From Micromonospora halotolerans (GTDB taxonomy: Bacteria > Actinomycetota > Actinomycetes > Mycobacteriales > Micromonosporaceae): DNA of 64,000 nt. Below the pieces are notes generated by a model. That model was not told the DNA's origin. It saw only the letters and a list, made by a program, of their open reading frames with translations, and made no database searches. This document shows positions 33,840 through 37,264 of the stretch, in pieces (the stretch's first letter is position 1; every line of letters starts with the position of its first letter). Where the stretch lies: NCBI RefSeq assembly GCF_032108445.1, contig NZ_CP134876.1:6696001-6760000 (forward strand), written 5' to 3'. Position numbers and translations under genes: made by a program.

Positions 33840-33900
33840 GTCGATCATGAAGTTGGCGGCGCCGCCGACGGCGTGTCGCGCCGCCAACTTCATGATCGAC
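33840..33900. repeat. Perfect 22-bp palindromic repeat / bidirectional terminator
   Basis: Arms 33840-33861 and 33879-33900 (beginning GTCGATCATGAAGTTGG) are exact inverted copies around a 17-base loop, between converging operons. The arm sequence has the look of an interspersed palindromic repeat as well as a terminator. Confidence 0.75.
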
Positions 33901-33934: not shown

Positions 33935-35212
33935 TTAGGCGGGGGTTAGGACGGCTTCCTTCAGGAGGCGGCGGGTCAGGACCAGGCGGTCGGCGTCGTC
34001 GTCCAGGCCGGGCAGGTCGCCGACCCGGGTCACCTCGCCGGCGAGCAGCGCGCGCAGGGCCGGCTCGCAGGTGCCGGGCAGGGTGATGGTGCGGTCGACG
34101 AGGCGCAGCGCCACCTTCCCGTCCCCCGTCGGGGTGAGCTGCCAGCGCAGTCCGGCCCGGGGCGCGACCCGGCTGTCCGCGTCGAGCGCGACCAGGGCGG
34201 CGGCCTGGGCGAGGGGCCGGATCGGCGCCGGGCGGGCGGCCGGCCAGGCCCGGTCGCGCAGCCGCGCGGCCACCGCGGCCGGGTCGGCCCGCAGCAGCCA
34301 GTCGCGCAGCGCCTCGACCGTCTCGGTCAGCTCCGGCTCGATGGCGTCCGGTTCGGCCACGTCGAGGCCGAACGGCAGCCCGGCGCGCAGCCGGGCGTCC
34401 TCGGCGGCGAGCCCCAGCAGCTCCTCGACCAGGGCGTACCGGGTCAGCGCCCGGATGCCCACGGTCAGGTGCAGCGAGCTGCACTCCTGCGCCTGGGCGC
34501 TGTGCAGCCAGCCGCGCGGCAGGTAGAGCGCGTCGCCGGGTTCGAGCACCACGTCCAGCGCGGCCCGCCCCTCGGCGACCGCGGAGACCTCGTCGGCCCG
34601 GCCGCCCCACGGCTGCTTCTCCAGCGGGTCGGGCAGCACCGGCGGGTGGATCCGCCAGTGCTTGCGGCCGTCCACCTGGAGCACGAACACGTCGTGGGTG
34701 TCGTAGTGGGTGGCGAAACCCTGGTTGCCGGCCGGGGTCAGGTAGGCGTTGACCTGCAACGGCTGGGCCAGCGCGGCGCCCAGGTCGCGGGCGAAGTCGA
34801 CCACCGCCGGCCAGGTGCGGTGCAGGCCCTGGAGGACCAGGGTGGCGCCGTCGGCGTACAGACCGAGGATCTTCTCGTCGAGGACCTGGTCGCCGATCTC
34901 GGCGCCCGCGCCGCCGCCGCCGGTGAAGCGCGCCGCCGGCACCAGCTGGCCCTCCTTGGCGACCCGCAGGAACGGGGTACGCAGGCCGCGGCGGCTGAGC
35001 AGCTCGTCGGCGTCGGCGGGGCTGAGCAGGTCGGTGAAGCCGGCCGGGTTGGGCAGCTCGGCGGCCCGGGACAGCAGTGGGCTGCGCCCCCAGTGGTCGG
35101 CGGCGAACTTGGCCGGCTCGACGGCCACGCAACGCGCGAGGGCGTCGGCCGCGGAAGACAGAACCGCCGGGCGGCCACGGCCGCCCGGCGGGTCGAGGTG
35201 CGTCACGGCCAT
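33935..35212 (-). CDS. Cupin-4 (JmjC-like) Fe(II)/2-oxoglutarate oxygenase
   Basis: 425 residues. The cupin-4 core has the metal motif H-x-D in GFATHYDTHDVFVLQVDGRKHW (~171) and the distal His in YLPRGWLHSAQAQE, with the 2-oxoglutarate-binding Lys/Arg context of ribosomal oxygenases (YcfD/NO66 type). Those enzymes hydroxylate ribosomal proteins. Here the gene starts 3 bases after a Gly/Ala/Asp repeat peptide, so that peptide is an attractive alternative substrate. The C-terminal ~150 residues form the usual winged-helix/dimer module. Confidence 0.9.
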   Translation of the reverse strand: MAVTHLDPPGGRGRPAVLSSAADALARCVAVEPAKFAADHWGRSPLLSRAAELPNPAGFTDLLSPADADELLSRRGLRTPFLRVAKEGQLVPAARFTGGGGAGAEIGDQVLDEKILGLYADGATLVLQGLHRTWPAVVDFARDLGAALAQPLQVNAYLTPAGNQGFATHYDTHDVFVLQVDGRKHWRIHPPVLPDPLEKQPWGGRADEVSAVAEGRAALDVVLEPGDALYLPRGWLHSAQAQECSSLHLTVGIRALTRYALVEELLGLAAEDARLRAGLPFGLDVAEPDAIEPELTETVEALRDWLLRADPAAVAARLRDRAWPAARPAPIRPLAQAAALVALDADSRVAPRAGLRWQLTPTGDGKVALRLVDRTITLPGTCEPALRALLAGEVTRVGDLPGLDDDADRLVLTRRLLKEAVLTPA

Positions 35213-35215
35213 CCG

Positions 35216-35503
35216 TCAGGCGCTGCCGTCGGCGCCGCCGTCGCGCTGACCGGGGGTCGCGCCACCGTCGGCCGGGCCCTCGGCGCTGCCGTCCGCGCCA
35301 CCGTCATGCTGGCCCGGGGTCGCGCCGCCGTCGGCCGGACCCTCCGCGCCGGTGTCGGCACCCTGGTCCCGGCCGCGCTCCGCGCCGCGGTCCGCGCCGC
35401 CGTCGGCGCCGCCGTCCTGCTGGCCCGGGGTCGCGCCACCGTCGGCCGGGCCTTCGGCACCGCCGCCGCCGGTGGTCTGCATGTCGTCGTCGTTGAGTGC
35501 CAT
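35216..35503 (-). CDS. Gly/Ala/Asp repeat peptide upstream of the cupin-4 oxygenase
   Basis: 95 residues from ATG 35503 with GAGGGAG upstream. A short head MALNDDDMQTTGGGG is followed by three copies of AEGPADGGATPGQ-x-DGGADG, the last two in direct tandem (21 residues each) and the first separated by an Asp/Arg/Gly-rich spacer. No Cys, no hydrophobic core, no fold. Head plus repeated cores is the design of a multi-core precursor peptide. It is co-transcribed with the oxygenase with a 3-base gap. It may also be only a disordered protein. Confidence 0.75.
   Translation of the reverse strand: MALNDDDMQTTGGGGAEGPADGGATPGQQDGGADGGADRGAERGRDQGADTGAEGPADGGATPGQHDGGADGSAEGPADGGATPGQRDGGADGSA
35222..35458 (-). 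repeat. Three 60-63-bp in-frame repeats
   Basis: Copies at about 35222-35284, 35285-35347 and 35399-35458 encode near-identical 20-21-residue units that differ only at the residue after GQ (R, H, Q) and at the last position. Confidence 0.85.
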
Positions 35504-35554
35504 GGGTCTCCCTCGGTGTGCCGCCCCGTCGTCGGGGTCCGTGTGCAGCGGGTG

Positions 35555-35580
35555 GTACCCCACGCCTGATCTTCTCTAAC
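35555..35580 (-). promoter_or_regulatory. Possible SigB-type promoter of the repeat-peptide operon
   Basis: Minus strand GTTA and GGGTAC with a 16-base spacer, 52 bases before ATG 35503. The -35 matches 3 of 4 bases. Confidence 0.35.
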
Positions 35581-35701
35581 CACACCGTAGACGCCCGAAC
35601 CCCGCCGCACGGACGGTTCGCCGGGCCCCGCCGAGGTCGCCGCGCGGTGGGGCGCGTCCGGTGCCAGGATGGCGGGAAGGAAACACGGGAAGGGGGTGGC
35701 C

Positions 35702-36445
35702 GTGGGGCAGCCGGAGCCGTCGACGCCGCTGGCCGAGGACTGGCAGCGGGCGCTCGCCGTGGTGGCCCACCCGGACGACCTGGAGTTCGGCGCGGCCGCC
35801 GCGGTGGCCCGCTGGACCGGGCAGGGCAAGCAGGTCGTCTACTGCCTGCTCACCAGCGGCGAGGCGGGCATCGACGCCATGCCCCCGGAGCGCAGCCGGG
35901 TGCTGCGGGAGGAGGAGCAGCGGGCCTCCGCCGCCGTGGTCGGGGTGGACACCGTGGAGTTCCTCGGCCTCCCCGACGGGCTCCTGGAGTACGGCGTGGC
36001 GCTGCGCCGCGCCATCGCCGCCGTGGTGCGCCGGCACCGGCCGGACATCGTGCTCACCAACAACTTCCGGGACACCTGGGACGGGGCGTACGCGTTGAAC
36101 CAGGCCGACCACATCGCCTGCGGCCGGGCCACGCTGGACGCCGTCCGCGACGCCGGCAACCGCTGGATCTTCCCGGAGCAGCTCACGGACGGGGTGGAGC
36201 CGTGGTCCCGGGTCCGTGAGGTCTGGGCGGCCGGCTCCCCGCAGGCCCGGCACGGGGTCGACGTGACGGCCAGCTTCGACCGCGGCGTGGCGTCGCTGCG
36301 GGCGCACGGGGCGTACCTGAGCGGGCTGGGCGACGGCGGTTTCGACGCCGAGGAGTTCCTCGAGGGGCTGGCCCGACCGGCCGGCACCCGGCTGGGCGTC
36401 CGGTACGGGGCCGCCTTCGAGGTGTTCCGGATCGACCTCGCCTAG
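35702..36445 (+). CDS. PIG-L family deacetylase
   Basis: About 247 residues. GTG 35702 has AGGGGG 5 bases upstream; ATG 35669 is an alternative. Zinc-site motifs: VVAHPDDLEFGAAAAVARW (AHPDD) and NQADHIACGRATLD (second His). PIG-L/LmbE enzymes remove N-acetyl groups from sugar derivatives; mycothiol enzymes MshB and Mca belong here, but this protein lacks clear signs of being either. It is followed after 9 bases by a DUF72 gene. Confidence 0.88.
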   Translation: MGQPEPSTPLAEDWQRALAVVAHPDDLEFGAAAAVARWTGQGKQVVYCLLTSGEAGIDAMPPERSRVLREEEQRASAAVVGVDTVEFLGLPDGLLEYGVALRRAIAAVVRRHRPDIVLTNNFRDTWDGAYALNQADHIACGRATLDAVRDAGNRWIFPEQLTDGVEPWSRVREVWAAGSPQARHGVDVTASFDRGVASLRAHGAYLSGLGDGGFDAEEFLEGLARPAGTRLGVRYGAAFEVFRIDLA

Positions 36446-36454
36446 GCGGCCGCG

Positions 36455-37264
36455 ATGATCCTGGTCGGCACGTCGGGCTGGCAGTACCGGGACTGGCGGG
36501 AGCGCTTCTACCCGGCGAAGCTGCCGCAGCGGCTCTGGCTGGAGCACTTCGCCGACCGGTTCGCCACGGTCGAGGTCAACAACGCCTTCTACCGGCTGCC
36601 CGAGCGGGACACGTTCGTGGCCTGGCGGGACCGCACACCCGACGACTTCTGCGTGGCGGTGAAGATGAGCCGCTACCTCACCCACATCAAGCGGCTGCGG
36701 GAACCGGCCGAGCCGGTGGCCCGGTTCCTGGACCGGGCGACCGGGCTGGGCGACCGGCTGGGGCCCGTGCTGGTGCAGCTCCCGCCCACCATGCGCGCCG
36801 ACCCGGCGGCCCTGGACGCCACCCTGCGGCTGTTCCCCGGCGAGGTGCGGGTGGCCGTCGAGCCCCGGCACCCGACCTGGTGGACCGACGACACCCGGCG
36901 GGTCCTGGAGCGCCACCGGGCGGCGCTCGTCTGGGCCGATCGGCTCAGCCGCCCGATCACGCCGCTGTGGCGCACCACCGACTTCGGCTACCTGCGGTTG
37001 CACGAGGGCCGGGCCCGGCCATGGCCCCGCTACGGCCGCGCCGCGCTGGCCACCTGGGTGCGCCGGCTGGCCACCGCCTTCCCGGGCGGCGAGCCGGCGT
37101 ACGTCTACTTCAACAACGACCCGGGCGGCGCGGCCATCGTCGACGCGGTGGCGTTCGCCGGGCTGGCCCGGCGGGCCGGGCTGCCGGTCACCCGGACGCC
37201 GCCGGCCCGCCCCGCCGGTGCGGCGGAGCGGGCCGGGAACGGGCCCGGTCAGGGAATCATGTGA
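36455..37264 (+). CDS. DUF72-family protein (1)
   Basis: 269 residues. DUF72 TIM-barrel signature: ILVGTSGWQYRDWRERFYPAKLPQRLWLEHFADRFATVEVNNAFYRLPERDTF, then DFCVAVKMSRYLTHIKRL, LVQLPPTMRAD and YVYFNNDPGGAAIVDA. The family is widespread and uncharacterised, with a possible sugar or nucleic-acid role. In an operon with the PIG-L deacetylase. A second DUF72 gene lies 700 bases away on the other strand. Confidence 0.9.
   Translation: MILVGTSGWQYRDWRERFYPAKLPQRLWLEHFADRFATVEVNNAFYRLPERDTFVAWRDRTPDDFCVAVKMSRYLTHIKRLREPAEPVARFLDRATGLGDRLGPVLVQLPPTMRADPAALDATLRLFPGEVRVAVEPRHPTWWTDDTRRVLERHRAALVWADRLSRPITPLWRTTDFGYLRLHEGRARPWPRYGRAALATWVRRLATAFPGGEPAYVYFNNDPGGAAIVDAVAFAGLARRAGLPVTRTPPARPAGAAERAGNGPGQGIM

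Follow-up and report, generated by a model that had tools for sequence, protein, structure and literature searches.

The 64,000-nucleotide stretch of Micromonospora halotolerans DNA analysed here (NZ_CP134876.1, positions 6,696,001 to 6,760,000; hereafter the window) comes from a 6.96-Mb single-contig genome. On its minus strand lies a gene for a 95-residue Asp/Gly/Ala repeat peptide, followed by a gene for a 425-residue JmjC_2 (cupin-4) oxygenase. Only 3 bases, equivalent to one codon (CGG), separate the end of the peptide gene from the cupin gene. The elements of the pair, in the order of transcription, are as follows.

35556..35581, minus strand: GGTTA-N16-GGGTA, a promoter-like element upstream of the peptide, conserved in Micromonosporaceae
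35508..35514, minus strand: GAGGGAG, probable ribosome-binding site for the peptide, identified by eye
35216..35503, minus strand: Asp/Gly/Ala repeat peptide gene, 95 residues and stop, with its ATG at 35503
35456..35503, minus strand: leader-like head, residues 1–16 (MALNDDDMQTTGGGGA); consensus in relatives L-x-D-D/E-D-I/M-x-T
35393..35455, minus strand: repeat unit 1, residues 17–37
35345..35392, minus strand: degenerate D/G/A/R stretch of 16 residues (38–53) between units 1 and 2
35282..35344, minus strand: repeat unit 2, residues 54–74
35219..35281, minus strand: repeat unit 3, residues 75–95
33935..35212, minus strand: JmjC_2 (cupin-4) Fe/2-oxoglutarate oxygenase gene, 425 residues and stop

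The peptide repeat unit, EGPADGGATPGQxDGGADGxA, is 21 residues long and occurs in three copies. A preliminary description of this DNA had proposed three units of 20–21 residues; the three copies after the head were recovered, but the array is not fully tandem, because the degenerate stretch at residues 38–53 splits copies 1 and 2. TRF assigned the peptide gene a 63-base period with 2.1 copies and 86% matches. The peptide contains 15 Asp, 4 Glu and 4 Arg residues and no Lys, and has a pI of 4.05. Its ATG start is backed by an identical head start in relatives and by the GAGGGAG immediately 5′; an alternative, longer frame of 115 residues begins at a GTG. Among the database records listed, such peptides are named only BatC or hypothetical protein.

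The repeat peptide is a real gene. At a GC content of approximately 78%, with other frames at the locus open too and with no match of the peptide to Pfam or NCBIfam models, it might be taken for a chance open frame, a reading whose probability is now negligible. The peptide is under purifying selection: across 30 relatives having the 16-residue head and four units, median pairwise dN/dS was 0.070 over 432 pairs, whereas the two out-of-register frames gave 5.5 and 13.5. Variable columns at codon positions 1, 2 and 3 numbered 15, 13 and 93 of 100 each. Furthermore, a six-frame scan by composition, covering 389,932 bases (the window and 20 loci) with fixed limits for an Asp-rich, small-residue and Lys/Arg-poor ORF tail, returned 14 ORFs, all 14 immediately upstream of a cupin gene, and found no ORF of peptide-like composition elsewhere in the DNA scanned. 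Seven loci gave no match; in six the peptide fell below the fixed limits, and in L207 the ORF is acidic and non-repetitive. The dN/dS values and the composition scan contradict the chance-frame reading, and conservation of the peptide outside the class stands against it as well.

The preliminary description placed the repeat peptide directly before a cupin-4 oxygenase, which holds for the window and, as a conserved pair, far beyond it; it also raised the question of whether related cupins usually lack such a peptide, and they do not. Among 80 loci listed from 336 cupin relatives, picked by the cupin only, a repeat ORF of two to six units lay upstream of the cupin in every case. The head was missing in five of these: four (L036, L051, L060 and L069) are truncated by a contig end, and L009 is interrupted by a run of N. 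A profile search of 296 genomes of the class detected the peptide in 36 and the cupin in 97, and in all 36 peptide-positive genomes the cupin was downstream on the same strand, with the spacing between matches ranging from a 3-base overlap to 369 bases. Near cupins, with at least 39% identity in the best stretch, were present in 60 of the 97 cupin-positive genomes. Fifty-five of the 60 were examined (G097, at a contig end, G176, G246, G295 and G202 were left out), and 53 carried an Asp-rich, nearly always repetitive, ORF upstream. In the remaining two, G273 and G081 (loci L145 and L148), an acidic ORF without repeats occupies that position; this ORF is itself conserved between them (DDPELxGADLxEDQ...GPTxEPGA). 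A phylum sample of 246 genomes yielded 25 outside the class with a cupin at E 1e-20 or better. Twenty of these loci were examined, one of which (L232) was cut and not readable, and a repeat ORF preceded the cupin in 19 of the 19 readable loci, being Asp-rich in 18 and Asp/Glu-rich in L238. Because the cores have drifted, the peptide profile gave a single match beyond the class, and a weak one.

In a tree of 79 cupins, from which the window cupin was excluded, the 58 entries whose partner is Asp-rich or acidic grouped together (partner types UNIT 38, ADGG 11, DGD 7 and ACID 2) with support of 94/95, slightly under the tool's mark. The window cupin is the sole match to itself within its own genome, and its closest counterparts among the matches listed are from Micromonospora, at 97%. 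Many actinobacteria that are only distantly related share the gene pair, a pattern that points to a so far uncharacterised system of modified peptides.

Two cupin relatives in the window's order (G159:C12:367903-369117 and G274:C1:60559-61771) contain an in-frame TGA within the match and are possibly decayed copies. Forty plasmid records, 38 of them from Streptomyces, held only partial cupins of less than 60% identity. Natural peptide–cupin fusions were sought among 8000 scored candidates, those sharing most words, and the two matches were both artefact-like: one is a chimera of isopropylmalate-dehydrogenase type, on a contig of 1403 bases, and the other an LtrA read-through. A further case, P0016, in which the peptide reads into the cupin, was judged a deletion or an assembly error.

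The cupin scored 104.3 bits against Pfam JmjC_2 (PF08007; cut-off 22), and its best PDB match was NO66 (E 2e-23). Alignment with NO66 and comparison of the peptide-paired cupins with an outgroup located the following residues.

34979..34981, minus strand: R78, Arg in 57/57 peptide-paired cupins and Glu in 13/15 outgroup cupins
34700..34708, minus strand: H169-Y-D171, two Fe ligands by the NO66 alignment, invariant in 57/57
34661..34663, minus strand: K184, the 2-oxoglutarate lysine by the NO66 alignment, invariant in 57/57
34502..34504, minus strand: H237, third Fe ligand by the NO66 alignment, invariant in 57/57

The intact H-x-D...H site noted in the preliminary description is thus present as H169, D171 and H237 throughout the clade. 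The peptide-paired clade has also gained basic residues of its own: in addition to R78, these are R352 (56/56 peptide-paired cupins; mostly Val or Thr in the outgroup), R27 (55/57) and H131 (54/57; Asp in 13/15 outgroup cupins).

That NO66 is the best structural match might suggest that the oxygenase hydroxylates ribosomal proteins, as NO66 and YcfD do, and that the adjoining peptide is incidental. In the passages available from PMC4556315, the NHxH motif is read in NO66 by Arg297, Asn376 and Ser421. NO66 residues Asn326 and Tyr328 are kept in the window cupin, as N155 and Y157, but the NHxH-reading residues are replaced by V126, E208 and G252; E208 falls where the alignment is weak, and G252, opposite Ser421, is Gly in the outgroup too. 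The sequence signature of a NO66-type ribosomal His hydroxylase is therefore lacking, and with the adjacency of peptide and cupin extending phylum-wide, a ribosomal substrate is very improbable.

The design of a head followed by repeated cores, proposed from the window alone, was borne out, with repeats that vary by lineage. When a loose form of the head motif (L-x-D-[DE]-D-[IM]-x-T or close to it) was sought in 155 loci, 127 matched (75/81 in Micromonosporaceae, 34/55 class loci and 18/19 outside the class); no fewer than two of these hits, L102 and L151, look false. The 28 loci without the pattern include cut or masked loci, head variants and streptomycete-type peptides. From the last of these the head is truly absent, and docking there must therefore differ.

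Three types of core occur: DGGADG units, (ADGG)n and TDGDATD-like runs. All cores have Asp in common, and it is frequent in each of the three types counted, while His, Gln and Arg vary. Across 84 peptides, Asp residues beyond the DDD of the head mostly adjoin Gly or Ala, and in the TDGDATD type also Thr or Ser. The residue before DGG was His in 123, Gln in 104 and Arg in 35 of 265 units. The pattern used to select these units required E, G, D, G, DGGADG and A from the outset, which makes conservation of the required residues in this count meaningless. The preliminary description had offered Asp, Pro or His/Gln/Arg as the hydroxylated residue. The His/Gln/Arg option was dropped because the position before DGG varies freely. 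Several distant peptides, L141 and L154 among them, have no Pro in their cores. Asp would be the target since it is the common core residue and since the enzyme clade has gained basic residues.

It is nevertheless conceivable that the peptide is the substrate of some other reaction, in which Thr, Pro, Ala or Gly is oxidised, or Asp is desaturated, decarboxylated or cross-linked. 2-Oxoglutarate oxygenases perform varied chemistry, and Thr is frequent in the TDGDATD type, making up 18% of residues in the four such peptides counted. Thr is rare in (ADGG)n cores, however, and the patchy occurrence of Pro, the frequency of Asp in every core type counted and the basic residues gained by the clade likewise speak against such chemistry, which is considered unlikely.

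Neighbouring genes were compared across 21 loci from 14 families, using ORFs of at least 80 residues within approximately 9 kb on each side (two contigs were short) and setting aside clusters antisense to cupin and PF06999 genes. The divergent neighbours of the pair in the window encode a PIG-L deacetylase and a DUF72 protein (35669-37261); neither was among the genes common to more than three families in this comparison. Inspection by eye also showed, after the cupin gene at 33841-33899, an inverted repeat whose 21-base arms (TCGATCATGAAGTTGGCGGCG and its complement) flank a 17-base loop. Apart from the pair itself, the only gene common to more than three families encodes a PF06999 ferredoxin-like protein, present in 14 loci of 11 families and confirmed as such in all six post-cupin genes tested, with the motif CxHGxxDxC. 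It often follows the cupin, but not in Micromonosporaceae. PF06999 occurs in 158 of the 296 class genomes and in none of three Micromonosporaceae sampled, which indicates that the peptide–cupin pair can do without it.

The Aim32/Apd1-type thioredoxin-like ferredoxins belong to the same family, and the motif of Aim32 is given in the accessible text of PMC8482512 as CX8CXnHX3H. The last His of the HX3H element is replaced in the cupin-associated proteins, by Asp in 53 and by Cys in one of 54 locus entries, several of which share a genome (example, L204:9670-10635). The resulting HxGGD suggests that one cluster ligand may be Asp.

The promoter-like element upstream of the peptide resembles stress sigma-factor (sigma-B/F-like) promoters. 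A loose form of the pattern fits 74 of 77 upstream regions in Micromonosporaceae, many through a second overlapping match ending GGGTT, but only three of 46 elsewhere, the window itself being one of the three; plain shuffles gave 0.012 and 0.022. A sigma-B/F-like promoter was accordingly rejected as a general feature of the pair.

No conserved protease or exporter was found near the pair in the 21 loci of 14 families. The preliminary description had seen no adjacent transporter or protease in the window and had taken this to weaken a secreted RiPP model; the wider comparison agrees, and a secreted RiPP is not supported, since neither kind of gene is conserved beside the pair. The pair does share other features with RiPP systems. 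A small precursor gene stands beside a modifying enzyme in 80/80 listed loci and 36/36 genomes, and a conserved leader with a variable core is seen in most lineages, the streptomycete-type peptides excepted. It would work like a RiPP precursor and its enzyme, but is not filed as a RiPP because a dedicated leader protease or exporter is not found nearby. The strict adjacency of the two genes, together with the missing protease and exporter, would also suit a small peptide that assists the oxygenase, for example by regulating it, stabilising it or feeding it metal, and is not its substrate. In a regulator it would be surprising to see nothing but Asp-rich repeats retained while their sequence changes and their number varies from two to six units, and this role appears decidedly improbable.

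A sample of the wider family comprised 20 cupin loci from 18 genomes, at 27–36% identity. Small peptides of three other kinds precede the cupin in 15 of these distant loci, and none was seen upstream in the other five; a further weak cupin relative, L152 (G144), likewise has no upstream small peptide. The first kind, EVEDLxEVTSRDxTAGGDxDGTDSSSDFI, occurs in eight loci (L161, L163, L167, L168, L170, L173, L176 and L177). In the one checked, a Peptidase_S9_N gene of prolyl-oligopeptidase type (L208:5841-9463) lies before the peptide, an arrangement of peptide, distant JmjC_2 cupin and peptidase that makes a RiPP-like context. The second kind, in four loci (L166, L171, L172 and L174), ends like GTGRSDxND, and Aldo_ket_red genes follow it in the two checked (L210:9281-11358 and L211:7829-9927). 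The third kind, in three loci, contains DPDGSDG or SDGSDG.

It is proposed that the peptide and JmjC_2 oxygenase genes form an enzyme–substrate operon. The N-terminal head of the peptide would dock on the oxygenase, which would then work along the repeats and hydroxylate Asp side chains, probably at the β-carbon. The product would be a peptide bearing several 3-hydroxyaspartates, which most plausibly binds metal and may be intracellular or exported by a general route. We put the probability of this reading at approximately 0.6; the non-repetitive acidic ORF in 2/55 class genomes, the 28/155 loci without the head pattern and the lack of a conserved protease or exporter in the 21 loci compared count against it. 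A more ambitious version is offered only as a tentative speculation, namely a widespread actinomycetotal ribosomal poly-3-hydroxyaspartate system, in which the tandem cores of a headed peptide serve as an iterative Asp-hydroxylation track. The product would be an intracellular metal-binding polymer, often handled alongside a dedicated [2Fe-2S] ferredoxin of the Asp-variant type, and not an antibiotic for secretion. If the enzyme does hydroxylate the peptide, the pair would be ready for studies of iterative Asp hydroxylation, would be a source of hydroxyaspartate-rich peptides, and would offer a lead to a role that Micromonospora has in common with actinobacteria beyond its own class.

The literature search covered titles, abstract starts and passages, with most subscription journals outside its scope, and found no description of the peptide–cupin pair, which for that reason is weak evidence of novelty. 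That JmjC_2 homologues occur in RiPP-like contexts is already known: an RRE survey, in the portions available, reports bacterial JmjC (PF08007) homologues of RRE-fused proteins in such contexts, and those portions name no Asp-repeat peptide and no peptide–cupin pair (PMC12710340).

The window cupin has in common with NO66, MINA53 and YcfD (PF08007) the fold family, as judged by sequence, the Fe triad and the 2-oxoglutarate lysine. It differs from them in lacking the NHxH-reading residues and in belonging to a clade in which every enzyme has an Asp-rich peptide partner. The usual interpretation of JmjC_2 enzymes is that they hydroxylate ribosomal proteins; here an actinobacterial clade of them is tied to Asp-repeat peptides of its own. 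Precedents exist for the separate parts of the proposed reaction. In the biosynthesis of the RiPP biphenomycin, the JmjC enzyme BipG hydroxylates a ribosomal precursor peptide (PMC12707348); its target is ornithine and its cluster multi-enzyme, whereas the present system has two or three conserved genes and Asp as its likely target. Asp β-hydroxylation of ribosomal peptides is similarly described, in the accessible passages, for PesHI of nitrilobacillin, at the single residue Asp21 (PMC13060819), and for SmaO of a graspetide cluster, at an N-terminal Asp (PMC13097080). PesHI and SmaO are different enzymes from different clusters, and those passages describe no repeated Asp cores like those of the window peptide. 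By analogy, PesHI and SmaO would serve as precedents for β-hydroxylation of Asp in a precursor peptide, and BipG for the use of a JmjC enzyme on such a substrate.
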